Positions 33,258 through 55,827 of a stretch of 64,000 nucleotides of DNA are shown here, in pieces. The stretch's first letter is position 1, and every line of letters starts with the position of its first letter. The notes beneath the pieces were generated by a model. It saw only the letters and a list, made by a program, of their open reading frames with translations. It was not told the DNA's origin and did not search any database. The position numbers were made by a program, and so were the translations under genes. The stretch spans positions 124,001 through 188,000 of the forward strand of contig NZ_JABEQK010000007.1 in the NCBI RefSeq assembly GCF_014174275.1, in the 5' to 3' direction. The stretch is from Gluconacetobacter takamatsuzukensis (GTDB taxonomy: Bacteria; Pseudomonadota; Alphaproteobacteria; Acetobacterales; Acetobacteraceae).

Positions 33258-35028
33258 GACCCATGCGTTCGCCGGCAGTTTCGGCGCCACCCTGGTCGCG
33301 CCGCACCAGACACGCTTCCGCTTCTGGGCGCCTTCCGTGTCCTCGGTCGCAGTGGAAATCGAGGGCCAGCCCCCGGTACCGATGGACCGCCACCCCGACG
33401 GCTGGTTCCAGGCCACGGCCCCCTGCGGCGCGGGCGCGCTCTACCGCTACCGGCTCAACCCCCACCTGGCGGTGCCCGACCCGGCCTCCCGCGCCCAGCC
33501 GCACGACGTGTCCGGCCCCAGCCAGGTGGTCGACCCCCGCGCGTACGACTGGCAGGCCAATGACTGGCGCGGCCTGCCGTGGGAACAGGCGGTCATCTAC
33601 GAAATCCATGTCGGCGCCGCCGGCGGGTTTCGCGGCGTGCGCGACCAGCTGGCCCGGCTGGCGGCAATGGGCATCACGGCGGTCGAGCTGATGCCGCTGT
33701 CCGAATTCCCCGGCGGCCGCAACTGGGGCTATGACGGCGTGCTGCCCTACGCGCCCGAATCCGCCTACGGCACGCCCGACGAGCTGAAGGCGCTGGTCGA
33801 CCACGCCCACGCGCTGGGCATGATGATCTTTCTCGATGTCGTCTACAATCATTTCGGGCCGGAGGGCAATTTCCTCGCCGCCTACGCCGCCCCGTTCTTC
33901 CATGCCGGCCGCCCGACCCCATGGGGCGACGCCATCGATTTCCGCCAGCCGGCGGTGCAGGCCTATTTCACCGAAAATGCCCTGTACTGGCTCATGGAAT
34001 ACCGTTTCGACGGGCTGAGGCTGGACGCGGTGCAGGCCATCGGCGAGCGCGACTGGCTGGTCGACCTCGCCGCCCATGTCCGCGCGCGCATCGAACCCGG
34101 CCGCCACATCCATTTGATCCTGGAAAACGAGAACAACGATGCCGGCCTGCTCCGCGCGGGCTTCGACGCGCAATGGAACGATGACGGCCACAACGCCCTG
34201 CACGTCCTGCTGACGGGCGAGAGCGAGGGCTATTACGCGAATTTCGCCCCCGACCCCACCACGCAACTGGCCCGCGTGCTGGCCGAAGGCTTCGCCTTCC
34301 AGGGCGAAGAGTTTCCCACCCTGGGCCGCCCGCGCGGCATGCCGACGGCCGGCCTGCCGCCCAGCGCCTTCGTCCTGTTCCTGCAAAATCACGACCAGAT
34401 CGGCAACCGCGCGATGGGCGAGCGTCTCGGCGTCCTGGCCCCCCGGCAGGCCCTGCGCGCGGCCTACGCGCTCCTGCTGCTGTCGCCGCAGATCCCGATG
34501 CTGTTCATGGGCGAGGACTGGGGCTCCCGCCGCCCGTTCCTCTATTTCACCAGCCACCCGCCGATCCTGGGCGACATCGTGCGCGACGGCCGCAGGCGCG
34601 AATTCGCGGCCTTCGCCCATTTCAGCGACCCGGCCCGGCGCGAGACGATCCCCGACCCCAACCACCCCGACACGTTCGCCGCCTCGATCCCCGATGCGCA
34701 GGAGGCCACATCGACCGAAGGCCGCGCCTGGCTGGCCTACACCGCCACCCTGCTGCACCTGCGCCATGCCCGCATCACCCCCCGCCTGCGCGGCGCCCGG
34801 TCGCTGGGGGCACTGGTCGCGGGCCCCGGTGCCGTGGCCGCGCGCTGGCGCATGGGCGACGGCGCCATCCTGTCGCTCGCCCTCAACCTGGGGGCGGAAA
34901 CGGTCGCCCTGCCGGACTGGGTCGCCGGCCCGGTCCTGTTCCAGGACCCGCCGGCAGCCGGCACGGGCGGCCTCCTGGCGCCCCATTCGGTCACGATCCA
35001 CCTGGCGGAGCCCGCCCATGGTGGATGA
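33250..35028 (+). CDS. treZ: Malto-oligosyltrehalose trehalohydrolase
   Basis: 592 residues, GH13 subfamily 10. An N-terminal beta-sandwich (TRFRFWAPSVSSVAVEIEGQ) precedes the barrel with D259 (FDGLRLDAVQAI), E292 (ILENEND-type) and D382 (LQNHDQIGN). The TreZ-typical NWGYDGVLPYAPESAYGTPD and LFMGEDWGS are present. It releases trehalose from maltooligosyl-trehalose made by TreY. It overlaps glgX by 8 bp and malQ by 11 bp, which implies translational coupling. Confidence 0.94.
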   Translation: MRKTHAFAGSFGATLVAPHQTRFRFWAPSVSSVAVEIEGQPPVPMDRHPDGWFQATAPCGAGALYRYRLNPHLAVPDPASRAQPHDVSGPSQVVDPRAYDWQANDWRGLPWEQAVIYEIHVGAAGGFRGVRDQLARLAAMGITAVELMPLSEFPGGRNWGYDGVLPYAPESAYGTPDELKALVDHAHALGMMIFLDVVYNHFGPEGNFLAAYAAPFFHAGRPTPWGDAIDFRQPAVQAYFTENALYWLMEYRFDGLRLDAVQAIGERDWLVDLAAHVRARIEPGRHIHLILENENNDAGLLRAGFDAQWNDDGHNALHVLLTGESEGYYANFAPDPTTQLARVLAEGFAFQGEEFPTLGRPRGMPTAGLPPSAFVLFLQNHDQIGNRAMGERLGVLAPRQALRAAYALLLLSPQIPMLFMGEDWGSRRPFLYFTSHPPILGDIVRDGRRREFAAFAHFSDPARRETIPDPNHPDTFAASIPDAQEATSTEGRAWLAYTATLLHLRHARITPRLRGARSLGALVAGPGAVAARWRMGDGAILSLALNLGAETVALPDWVAGPVLFQDPPAAGTGGLLAPHSVTIHLAEPAHGG

Positions 35029-53028: not shown

Positions 53029-53586
53029 CTACGGCGCCGCCACCACCATGATCTCGATTTCCGGCGTCCCGCTGCCGCTCAGCTGGATGATCGCGCGCCC
53101 GGCCGGCAGCGCAAAATCGACCATCTTGCCGATGCTGCTGCATGCCGGCCCGTGCTCGTGGTGGGTCGAGGCAACGGCACTCCCCCCGCGCACCACATCC
53201 AGCCACGCGCGGGCGTTCAGCATCACCCGGTAGGTCCCGGCCACAGGCGCGTCGAAGGCCACCATGCCGCCCGAACTCACCGTCCCGCCCGGCTCGTCCG
53301 GCTGCAGGGCATAGCTCACATCCGGCGTCGCCCGCAGCGCCAGCATCACCGCCTGCCCGGGTGCCAGCACGGCGTGATCCAGCGCCGACACGGTGCCGGC
53401 CGCCGCCATGTGCGCGGGCACCGCCCATCCGCGCAGCGCCTCGGGCAGTGGCGGCGCCCCCGCCGCGCAATCCGGCGGCAGCGGCGCGGCCGCAGGCGGC
53501 GCGTCCGCCAGCGCGGGGGCCGACAGGGCAAGCCCGACCAGCAGCGCGGCCAGAGAGGGGATGACGAAGGGTCTCGCGCTTGCCAT
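53029..53586 (-). CDS. Secreted protein of unknown function
   Basis: 185 residues with a clear signal peptide (IPSLAALLVGLALSAPALA, cleavage near residue 28). The mature region has an Ala/Pro start, two Cys (PDCAAG and GPACSS) that could form a disulphide, and beta-rich segments (GTYRVMLNARAWLDVVRGGS, then GRAIIQLSGSGTPEIEIMVV). The fold looks like a small beta-sandwich, perhaps a carbohydrate- or metal-binding domain; I do not recognise the family. It is monocistronic and borders the DnaA-box region. Confidence 0.68.
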   Translation of the reverse strand: MASARPFVIPSLAALLVGLALSAPALADAPPAAAPLPPDCAAGAPPLPEALRGWAVPAHMAAAGTVSALDHAVLAPGQAVMLALRATPDVSYALQPDEPGGTVSSGGMVAFDAPVAGTYRVMLNARAWLDVVRGGSAVASTHHEHGPACSSIGKMVDFALPAGRAIIQLSGSGTPEIEIMVVAAP

Positions 53587-53891
53587 GATGCCGTCAGCCT
53601 TCCTGTATCGCTTTGGATGCGTGCCCGATTCTATACCCGGCGGCGCCGAAACCCGAAATCAAAGGCCGCCCCCGTCGCGGCCCGGCCGGATTCGCAAAGA
53701 ATCCGCCGCCAATCGGCCCCCTTGGGGAGTCAAGCGTGAATCGTCGTCAAGCTGTGAATTGTTTCGCCCGACGGCGGCACCAAAAAGCGTACCGGAATCG
53801 CCGATATTCGGCGCTTCCTCTCTTGACTGCGCAAAAACGGCAGAAAACAGCCATTTTCGGAATCGCCCCCCTCGGCCCCCTCCCGACGATT

Positions 53892-53934
53892 ATCCACAGA
53901 TTCCGGGGGTACCCTTCTGGATAACTCTGTGGAT
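53892..53934. promoter_or_regulatory. Inverted pair ATCCACAGA/TCTGTGGAT in core 1
   Basis: A perfect 9-bp inverted repeat (53892-53900 and 53926-53934) joins the two outer DnaA-like boxes of the first core. In core 2 the left arm is exact and the right arm is TCTGTGGGC. DnaA or another box-binding protein could bind cooperatively here. Confidence 0.5.
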
Positions 53935-54342
53935 GGCTTGTCCCGGAACAGGCCGCAACGCGCCGAACCCCGCCTTTCTTGGTTTGTTCCGCCGCCGCGC
54001 CCCTCCGGCATCGCATCGGCGGGCAGGGCGAAAAGACGCCCCGTCACCACGATACCCGCACCCACATCCCCCTCCGGCTGTGAATGGTTTTCCACCCGGG
54101 GCAGTCATAAAATTGACACGGAATCAAGGGCCTTTCGGCAGACGGATGAAATCAATCCAAGAATGGCGGAAAACCGCCATTTCTCCACTCGCCCCCCTCG
54201 GCCCCCTCCCGACGATTATCCACAGATTCCGGGGATACCCCTCTGGATAACTCTGTGGGCAGACGCCACTGGCGCTTGAATCGGACCAAGCTTGCCCTGT
54301 TCTTCCCGGTTTGTTCTCGCAACCCCGGCAAAAGGCCCGCAC

Positions 54343-54375
54343 AAAAAAAAGAGGCCGGGCCCGAAGGCCCGGCCA
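54343..54375 (-). terminator. Strong rho-independent terminator of the MFS gene
   Basis: GGCCGGGCC (54354-54362) and GGCCCGGCC (54367-54375) form a perfect 9-bp stem with a TTCG loop on the minus strand. It is followed by TC and a run of eight or nine T (complement of A54343-54351). It lies 111 bp past the stop of the minus-strand MFS gene and inside unit 2 of the DnaA-box region, thus shielding the region from transcription. Confidence 0.82.
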
Positions 54376-54485
54376 AGGGGGGTTTTGCACAGCGGGTCGC
54401 TCTTATCCGATCGACGACACCCCGGCCATGAAATAATTGTGACATCGTGACGAACCGCTTCCCGCACCGGCCCGCTCACACCGCC

Positions 54486-55682
54486 TCACTCATCATGCCC
54501 GGCAGGCGGCAGGCTGTGCGGAAACGCGGCGGGATTGCAGAAGCCCAGCAGAATCCCCCCCAGCGCCACGGCAACGGCCAGCGGCGTCAGCACGCCGAAC
54601 CCGGCATGGGTCAGCACCTGCCCGCCGGCGGCCGACCCCAGCAGAATACCTACGTTGCTGGCGGCATTGATCGCGGCGCCGGCCACGTCCGGGCGCGTCG
54701 CCCGGGCCCGGATCGCACCGGACATCACGAAGGGGATGATGGCCGAATAGCCGATGCACCACAGCCCCACGGCCCCCACCGCCGCCCAGCCGGACAGGAT
54801 ATGCCCGTACATCAGCCCCATGCCGATCAGCATGGCCAGCCCGCCGCCCAGCAGCCCGGCCCCCGGGTTGCGGTCCACGAACTGCCCGGCCCCCCACAGG
54901 CCGAGAATGCTCAGCGCCCCCGTCAGCAGCAGGGCGATGCTCAGCGTGCCGCTCGTCAGCCCATGGTCCAGCAGCAGCGGCGCCACATAGGTGTACAGCA
55001 GGTTGTGCGCGAAGAAGAACACGGCATCCACCGCCACCACGACCAGGAAGATCCGCATGACCTTCCGCGACGCAACCCCCGGCAGGCTGTTGCGCACATG
55101 CGCGGCGGCCGAAACCGGCGGCAGGAAAAACGCAATGCACAGCGTCAGCACGGCGGCCAGCGCGGTCATGACGAACATGGCGGTCCGCCACCCCGCCAGA
55201 TGCCCCACCGCCGCCGCCCCCGGCACGCCCAGGATGGCCCCCAGCGAGGTCCCGCCATAGACGAACGAAATGGCCCGCCCCGTCATGCTCTGCGGCACCA
55301 GCCGCGCGGCATAGGCCGAAACGATCGACATCAGCAGCGCATGCGCCAGCCCCCCGATCAGCCGCCCGGCGCACAGCAGCGCAAAGGTCGGCGCCACCGC
55401 CATCACCAGGTTCGACAGCACATAGCCGGACAGCGAAACCAGCATCAGCCGCTTGCGGTCGATATGCGCGGTCATGATCGTCAGCGGCACGGCGCCCAGC
55501 GCCACCATCAGCGCAAAGGCGCTGACGGCCAGCCCCGCCTCGCCCTCGGGAATGCGGAAACCCTGCGCCATCTCGATCAGGATGCCGACAGGCGCCACTT
55601 CGCTGGTCAGCGCCGTGAAGGTACAGGCAAACAACGCCCACAGGCCGATGACGGCACTGGTCGGCAGGGTCTTGAAAAGCAT
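54486..55682 (-). CDS. MFS transporter, DHA1/AraJ-like exporter
   Basis: 398 residues, 12 membrane helices. FTALTSEVAPVGILIEMAQG in helix 1, the loop TAHIDRKRLMLVSLSGYVLS and the helix 5 antiporter motif YGGTSLGAILGVPGAAAVGH mark the DHA1 drug/sugar efflux branch (AraJ, chloramphenicol-resistance-like). Start 55682 (MLFKTLPT) has AGG upstream; the in-frame ATG 55754 gives an implausible basic leader. It ends at a strong terminator. It may belong with the LysR gene upstream on the same strand. Confidence 0.85.
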   Translation of the reverse strand: MLFKTLPTSAVIGLWALFACTFTALTSEVAPVGILIEMAQGFRIPEGEAGLAVSAFALMVALGAVPLTIMTAHIDRKRLMLVSLSGYVLSNLVMAVAPTFALLCAGRLIGGLAHALLMSIVSAYAARLVPQSMTGRAISFVYGGTSLGAILGVPGAAAVGHLAGWRTAMFVMTALAAVLTLCIAFFLPPVSAAAHVRNSLPGVASRKVMRIFLVVVAVDAVFFFAHNLLYTYVAPLLLDHGLTSGTLSIALLLTGALSILGLWGAGQFVDRNPGAGLLGGGLAMLIGMGLMYGHILSGWAAVGAVGLWCIGYSAIIPFVMSGAIRARATRPDVAGAAINAASNVGILLGSAAGGQVLTHAGFGVLTPLAVAVALGGILLGFCNPAAFPHSLPPAGHDE

Positions 55683-55827
55683 GGGGGGACCTGTCGCGAA
55701 TACAGAAACGGAAAATACGGTCTGACGCCGATTCTTCGAAAACCCTTCTGGCATCCCCGCCGCCGGAACGAAATAGCCAGTTTGCGAAAGGCTGAACCCC
55801 GCCCGGCACCCGGGGCCCCGGCCCCCT

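Follow-up and report, generated by a model that had tools for sequence, protein, structure and literature searches.

A conserved tandem DnaA-box element in acetic-acid bacteria, a probable DnaA assembly site outside the replication origin

The conversion of ADP-DnaA into ATP-DnaA has been worked out in E. coli. In its chromosome (NC_000913) the DnaA boxes of both DARS1 and DARS2 were located at spacings of 0/+14/+26, with no good box at +38, and DARS1 lies upstream of uvrB; the boxes of datA lie at 0/+67/+229 on one strand, with one facing box at +241. Excerpts of published work describe the facing (head-to-head) boxes I and II as characteristic of, and essential to, DARS, with box III helping through box II (PMC10380432), and the DARS2 core as a conserved feature specific to gammaproteobacterial relatives of E. 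coli (PMC4245941), and mention DARS-like sequences in Vibrio cholerae (PMC6090056). In the excerpts of the literature found on DARS, datA and DnaA with Caulobacter, no alphaproteobacterial DARS is named. In this study, we report a tandem DnaA-box element from Gluconacetobacter takamatsuzukensis, contained in a 64-kb stretch of DNA (positions 124001-188000 of contig C7, hereafter the window) of a genome (G000) of 3.78 Mb in 35 contigs. Judged from its sequence, the element is very probably a conserved site of DnaA assembly away from the origin. In view of its geometry, DARS-like recharging of ADP-DnaA would be the most economical mechanism, and it is put forward tentatively. To our knowledge, no such DARS-type sites have been known outside Gammaproteobacteria, and these would be the first.

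Structure of the tandem element

Both units of the element lie in a gene-free gap between two minus-strand frames, 53029-53586(-), which encodes 185 aa without a Pfam or NCBIfam match, and 54486-55754(-), an MFS gene. The features of the gap are the following.

53740..54065, plus strand: unit 1 of the tandem element, a 326-bp direct repeat; the 'a' copy, present in the window genome and six relatives
53753..53761, minus strand: distal weak DnaA box of unit 1, CAATTCACA, 6/9, ~137-138 bp upstream of box I
53839..53852, no strand: dyad of unit 1, GGCAGAAAACAGCC, degenerate (from sequence and genus alignment)
53890..53898, plus strand: box I of unit 1, TTATCCACA, a perfect DnaA box
53899..53903, no strand: GANTC word abutting box I of unit 1, in 18/18 aligned genus copies
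53904..53912, minus strand: degenerate box at +14 of unit 1, GTACCCCCG, 5/9
53916..53924, minus strand: box at +26 of unit 1, TTATCCAGA, 8/9
53928..53936, minus strand: box at +38 of unit 1, CCATCCACA, 7/9
53981..53989, plus strand: conserved downstream block of unit 1, GGTTTGTTC, invariant in 18 aligned copies
54066..54391, plus strand: unit 2 of the tandem element, clearly similar to unit 1 as far as ~54320; the 'b' copy, in the same seven genomes as 'a'
54079..54087, minus strand: distal weak DnaA box of unit 2, CCATTCACA, 6/9 by box scoring
54165..54178, no strand: dyad of unit 2, GGCGGAAAACCGCC; GGCGGTTTTCCGCC in G011 and G013
54216..54224, plus strand: box I of unit 2, TTATCCACA, a perfect DnaA box
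54225..54229, no strand: GANTC word abutting box I of unit 2 (genus alignment)
54230..54238, minus strand: degenerate box at +14 of unit 2, GTATCCCCG, 6/9; box I and this box together match the DARS I-II pattern apart from 3 mismatches
54242..54250, minus strand: box at +26 of unit 2, TTATCCAGA, 8/9
54254..54262, minus strand: weak box at +38 of unit 2, CTGCCCACA, 6/9
54308..54316, plus strand: conserved downstream block of unit 2, GGTTTGTTC, invariant in 18 aligned copies
54345..54374, minus strand: intrinsic terminator of the MFS gene, stem 54374-54353 with 9 G-C pairs, followed by a T-run

The first-pass annotation, made from the letters of the window, had described two adjacent copies in a gene-free stretch sharing a 69-bp core that is 67/69 identical, the rest having drifted. 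This description is borne out: the units follow each other at 326 bp, the best-matching 69 bp (53863-53931) agree with their copy at +326 at 67 of 69 positions, and the flanks outside it are far more diverged between units 1 and 2. The claim that the landmarks recur at exactly 326 bp is correct for the boxes and the core; the block GGTTTGTTC recurs at 327 bp. As also stated there, each core holds one perfect box (53890(+) and 54216(+)) and one opposite-strand box with a single mismatch (53916(-) and 54242(-)), and core 1 has a third; this box, at 53928(-), has two mismatches. The strong terminator was likewise found; it would end minus-strand MFS transcripts and is by far the strongest of three terminator-like sites, against 2.1 expected by shuffling.

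Perfect DnaA boxes occur 16 times in the window genome and the reversed word 14 times, so single perfect boxes mean little. Sixteen random sites would be expected to give 0.025 pairs within 400 bp, and within the 64-kb window the two element copies alone combine a box at 0(+) with one at +26(-), each scoring 8/9 or better. The density of GANTC in the window is 1.27 per kb. In connection with IHF, which like Fis has sites in DARS2, AATCAAG words were noted by eye near -100 in many genus copies.

The repeated hairpin-like GGCGGAAAACCGCC could suggest that the units are tandem small RNA genes. The feature that is conserved, however, is the spacing of the boxes, and Rfam gave two sub-threshold matches, both on the terminator; small RNA genes were accordingly set aside as extremely unlikely.

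Position relative to the replication origin

A chromosomal replication origin was the reading preferred by the first-pass annotation, and consensus DnaA boxes in a gene-free gap speak for it. They are also what the element has in common with the hemE-linked oriC of Caulobacter and other Alphaproteobacteria; unlike that origin, the element is not beside hemE or parS, and its contig shows no strand switch. Origins of Alphaproteobacteria are usually marked by hemE and parS. The Caulobacter origin adjoins hemE according to an excerpt of PMC1914354, and in the window genome hemE and parS are located on C2, the site on C7. An exact parS was found within ~26 kb of hemE in 6/6 genus genomes searched. 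Where site and hemE share a contig they are 545 kb (G005), 559 kb (G004), 644 kb (G003) and 222 kb (G011) apart, and in G012 the shorter route between them measures 1.4 Mb.

The strand bias of GGGNAGGG agrees with this placement. On C7, counts in the sampled DNA were 48/12 to the left of the site and 16/3 to the right, with no switch at the site. On C2, they were 13/42 in seven counting windows to 310 kb and 32/15 in seven from 320 kb, the switch lying 45-78 kb from hemE. In G003, counts of 4/37 (ten counting windows, 389 kb-2.159 Mb), 54/22 (fifteen, 2.17-2.74 Mb) and 51/9 (nine, 2.742-2.936 Mb) put the sign change at ~2.16 Mb, beside hemE/parS and not at the site (2.78 Mb). GC skew, the check proposed by the first-pass annotation, was -0.084 to the left of the site on C7 and -0.065 to the right, again with no switch; it is of little help, being noisy in G011 and in conflict with the sign of GGGNAGGG on C7. 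Two skew observations nevertheless favour an origin near the site. In G003, both the GGGNAGGG bias and the GC skew are stronger near the site, the skew being near zero over 2.17-2.70 Mb and clearly positive from 2.74 Mb, and the GC-skew minimum of G012 lies near 3.65 Mb, ~70 kb from the site. G003 and G012, which we take to be two assemblies of one G. diazotrophicus strain, differ in the placement of hemE/parS, dnaA and the skew minimum, and since their lay-outs disagree G012 was not used for origin placement.

An excerpt of PMC3751514 places the oriC of Acetobacter pasteurianus near dnaA, not hemE, using octamers similar to GGGNAGGG. Because dnaA of the window genome is on C4 and not on the site contig, this gives no help to the window site; the earlier remark that dnaA is absent from the window was thus right. 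A literature search on oriC DnaA boxes in Acetobacteraceae returned no paper. In a 2.0-Mb genome of the family (G094), a cluster of thirteen perfect TTATCCACA boxes immediately precedes hemE on its upstream side (L181:1409-1665); it is probably oriC and also counts against an origin at the element. The origin reading therefore fails, and it is considered extremely improbable.

A separate observation concerns the gap upstream of hemE in the window genome (L142, C2, ~387.8-388.4 kb), where GTAC words and weak DnaA boxes abound. By eye, it contains a GGGTACC near TCATCCACA, echoing the GGGTACC of the window element.

Conservation in the genus and the family

Searching related genomes for the core, as the first-pass annotation had advised, returned element matches in 11/13 same-genus relatives at E<=0.001; at this threshold G001 and G009 gave none, G001 showing a weak match in the family model search. 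The tandem pair is present in the window genome and six relatives (G002, G004, G005, G006, G007 and G010), and a single copy in five (G003, G008, G011, G012 and G013). An exact-pattern scan of named genomes found the core in eight Gluconacetobacter species and in Nguyenibacter vanlangensis (9 records). Across species the core likeness is 95% among a copies and 96% among b copies and only 88% between a and b; the duplication therefore predates the seven species, and both copies have been kept.

The gene neighbours bear on the possibility that the element is a DnaA-controlled promoter region of the neighbour gene 53029-53586(-). Unit 1 lies upstream of this gene in the window genome, and also in the six tandem-bearing relatives, all of which (6/6) have the same two flanking genes as the window. 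The single-copy relatives, however, keep the element beside unrelated genes. None of the window's neighbour genes is found at the element in these five genomes, except for a distant LysR match of 32% identity in G011. The element adjoins an Hsp20 gene in G011, genes for T2SS protein K/hexapeptide transferase in G008 and GGDEF/GNAT genes in G012, where it sits between the converging ends of two genes. A scan of the gap for promoters of the sigma-70 type found none. We regard a promoter role as unlikely.

A sequence model built from 18 genus copies was searched against 299 family genomes, of which 81 gave matches at E<=0.01, the weak ones being partly chance. Near full-length matches were found in five other genera (g47, g76, g89, g95 and g64), those in g76 and g64 with weak scores, and the twelve near full-length copies from these genera were compared base by base. 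Box I is unrecognisable in 5/12 of them (two in g89 and three in g76), and the 12-bp phasing is kept while single boxes change.

In a model-free search, used against circularity, TTATCCACA facing TGTGGRTAR with 0-30 bp between was sought, each palindromic site being counted once and own-family rows being removed from the outside-family set. This gave 55 distinct sites in 43/299 family genomes, and the reversed-word control gave 6 matches in 4 genomes. The start-to-start spacing was 38 bp at 19/55 sites (7 genera), 37 bp at 3/55 and 14 bp at 12/55; among the 41 sites found in the 380 genomes searched outside the family, it was 38 bp at 1/41 and 14 bp at 3/41. A distance of 38 bp is the one dominant facing-box spacing in the family. 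The offsets +14 and +26 were not selected for in this search, and at the 17 non-genus sites (of the 19 with 38 bp) their minus-strand box-likeness averaged 5.59/9 and 5.65/9, respectively, compared with a median of 2.29 over all offsets. Averaged over six genera the values were 5.56 (+14) and 5.31 (+26), and 0/2000 shuffles reached either, a result that overstates significance and is not to be read as a probability, since rows within one genus are related. For g76 and g89, the analyst chose which way round the rows were read; with the opposite choice both means become 5.12. An earlier run of the offset test had used 15 of the 19 sites and included four genus rows.

The weak upstream box on the minus strand (~-138), which is outside the model, scores 6-8/9 in 12/12 full-length copies of other genera, whereas the best-of-four background reaches 6/9 at 2.8% of positions. 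Of the 18 genus copies 11 were scored, and all of these keep it. At nine further other-genus loci it is absent in eight and reaches 6/9 in the ninth. Box scoring covered 11/18 genus copies and, in other genera, 12/24 loci base by base and 21/24 in the upstream-box test (L174, L181 and L186 being left out). Among 38-bp sites, the upstream box is present in G196 (one of two), G296, G059, G267, G107, G076 and the genus. The 0/14/26/38 ladder sites L183, L184, L187, L189 and L190 of other genera are without it. The ladder therefore occurs in at least two contexts and is not one uniform element, and the sites without the upstream box are possibly a second kind of site.

A decayed plasmid-type origin, which the first-pass annotation had offered as an alternative, or one derived from a phage, would find some support in facing DnaA boxes 14 bp apart beside one conserved Rep-like frame in the family (Rep by eye), and in facing boxes near Rep- and ParA-like frames on C16 of the window genome (by eye). 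The element itself, however, was matched by none of 72,556 plasmid and 50,697 phage records, and no plasmid relative with the 0/26/38 core turned up among them. No Rep family was detected among the ten neighbouring proteins scanned, and the split between the a and b copies predates the seven species. A plasmid or phage origin was set aside as very unlikely.

Comparison with DARS and datA, and possible mode of action

With DARS1 and DARS2 the element shares an intergenic position outside the origin and one box facing opposite-strand boxes in 12-bp steps. In DARS, box I faces box II, and box III lies beyond in the same sense as II; a corresponding arrangement, 0(+), +26(-) and +38(-), was found in both units. 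The differences lie in the rungs. The +14 word, at the position of the strongest box of DARS, reaches 5/9 (unit 1) or 6/9 (unit 2), against 9/9 in E. coli, where box III of DARS2 is itself 5/9; the good ladder boxes of the element are those at +26 and +38. The rung at +38, the conserved weak box ~138 bp upstream, the tandem duplication and the alphaproteobacterial host are further differences from DARS. Because of the degenerate +14 box, the element is not filed as a member of DARS.

A companion site with exactly the E. coli DARS spacing was found in the window genome (C4:277907-277941; L004:1489-1523), with a box triad at 0/+14/+26 and 9/9 at +14. It ends 16 bp before the start codon taken for uvrC, a position just before uvrC that compares with that of DARS1 upstream of uvrB. 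The uvrC gene was identified by TIGR00194 with 426.9 bits against a cut-off of 285.45, a profile test of the window genome only. The TCATCCAC[CG]/TGTGGATAA pair at 14 bp is present in 13/13 genus genomes and in the three genomes of other genera searched, and a third box (6-7/9) at +26 accompanies it in 14/14 of the aligned sites (of 16, G004 and G007 being left out).

The proposed role as an assembly site draws on the sequence syntax, the conservation, the differing gene neighbours in relatives and the distance from hemE and parS. Each unit would act in cis as a place of DnaA assembly away from the origin. One box (I) faces the opposite-strand ladder, whose rungs lie at +14 (degenerate), +26 and +38, and a weak box lies ~138 bp upstream. 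If DnaA binds here, as the boxes suggest, DnaA on box I would meet the ladder DnaA in the head-to-head manner of E. coli DARS. Such contact could loosen ADP, so that apo-DnaA would leave and take up ATP, and more active initiator would be available by the time the next round begins. A tandem pair would provide twice the dose, and, more speculatively, methylation at the GANTC adjoining box I may set the timing of the site once the fork has passed. Conservation and DARS-like box geometry support this DARS-like reading, tempered by a +14 box of only 5-6/9 and a ladder that is not one uniform element. Thus, of the interpretations in the first-pass annotation, a datA/DARS-like DnaA site has gained support, and the chromosomal and plasmid origins have not stood.

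The main rival, next after DARS-like action, is titration or datA-like inactivation, in which the boxes, shortly after their own replication, would sequester DnaA or stimulate ATP hydrolysis on it, preventing re-initiation; we consider it possible but doubtful. Like the element, datA is a cluster of DnaA boxes in non-coding DNA, some hundred kb away from the origin, and the hemE distances of 222-644 kb (G011, G005, G004 and G003) are in the range of datA in E. coli. Several boxes per unit, doubled in seven genomes, would also suit titration, and a section title of PMC12371093 credits DARS1, DARS2 and datA with a large fraction of the titration power of the E. coli chromosome. The box order and spacing of the element, however, differ from those of the datA region of NC_000913; datA has five boxes, the second and third of which flank an IHF site. 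Pure titration, moreover, needs no fixed 12-bp phasing, yet the phasing persists where single boxes have changed.

Returning to the DARS-like reading, it is conceivable, though we offer it with reserve, that acetic-acid bacteria own a DnaA-recharging system with two components. One would be a canonical DARS of three boxes ahead of uvrC, the other a DARS-like element that is extended to four boxes and in some genomes doubled; GANTC methylation, in place of Dam/SeqA/Fis, could possibly time them. If such an element works in an alphaproteobacterial family, recharging sites would be older, or would have arisen twice. It would also supply naturally varied box geometries for testing the head-to-head model.

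Other DnaA-box loci were observed along with the element. The facing 14-bp pairs L215-L218, L220, L221 and L224 adjoin one Rep-like frame (by eye) and are set apart from the uvrC site. On C16 of the window genome, facing DnaA boxes lie between Rep-like and ParA-like frames (by eye) at 33387-33609 (L244), probably a plasmid origin. On C1, two same-strand perfect DnaA boxes ~250 bp apart (374042 and 374290; L001) adjoin a plsC-like gene near ftsE/ftsX-like genes (by eye), with aligned counterparts in G003, G012 and G006.
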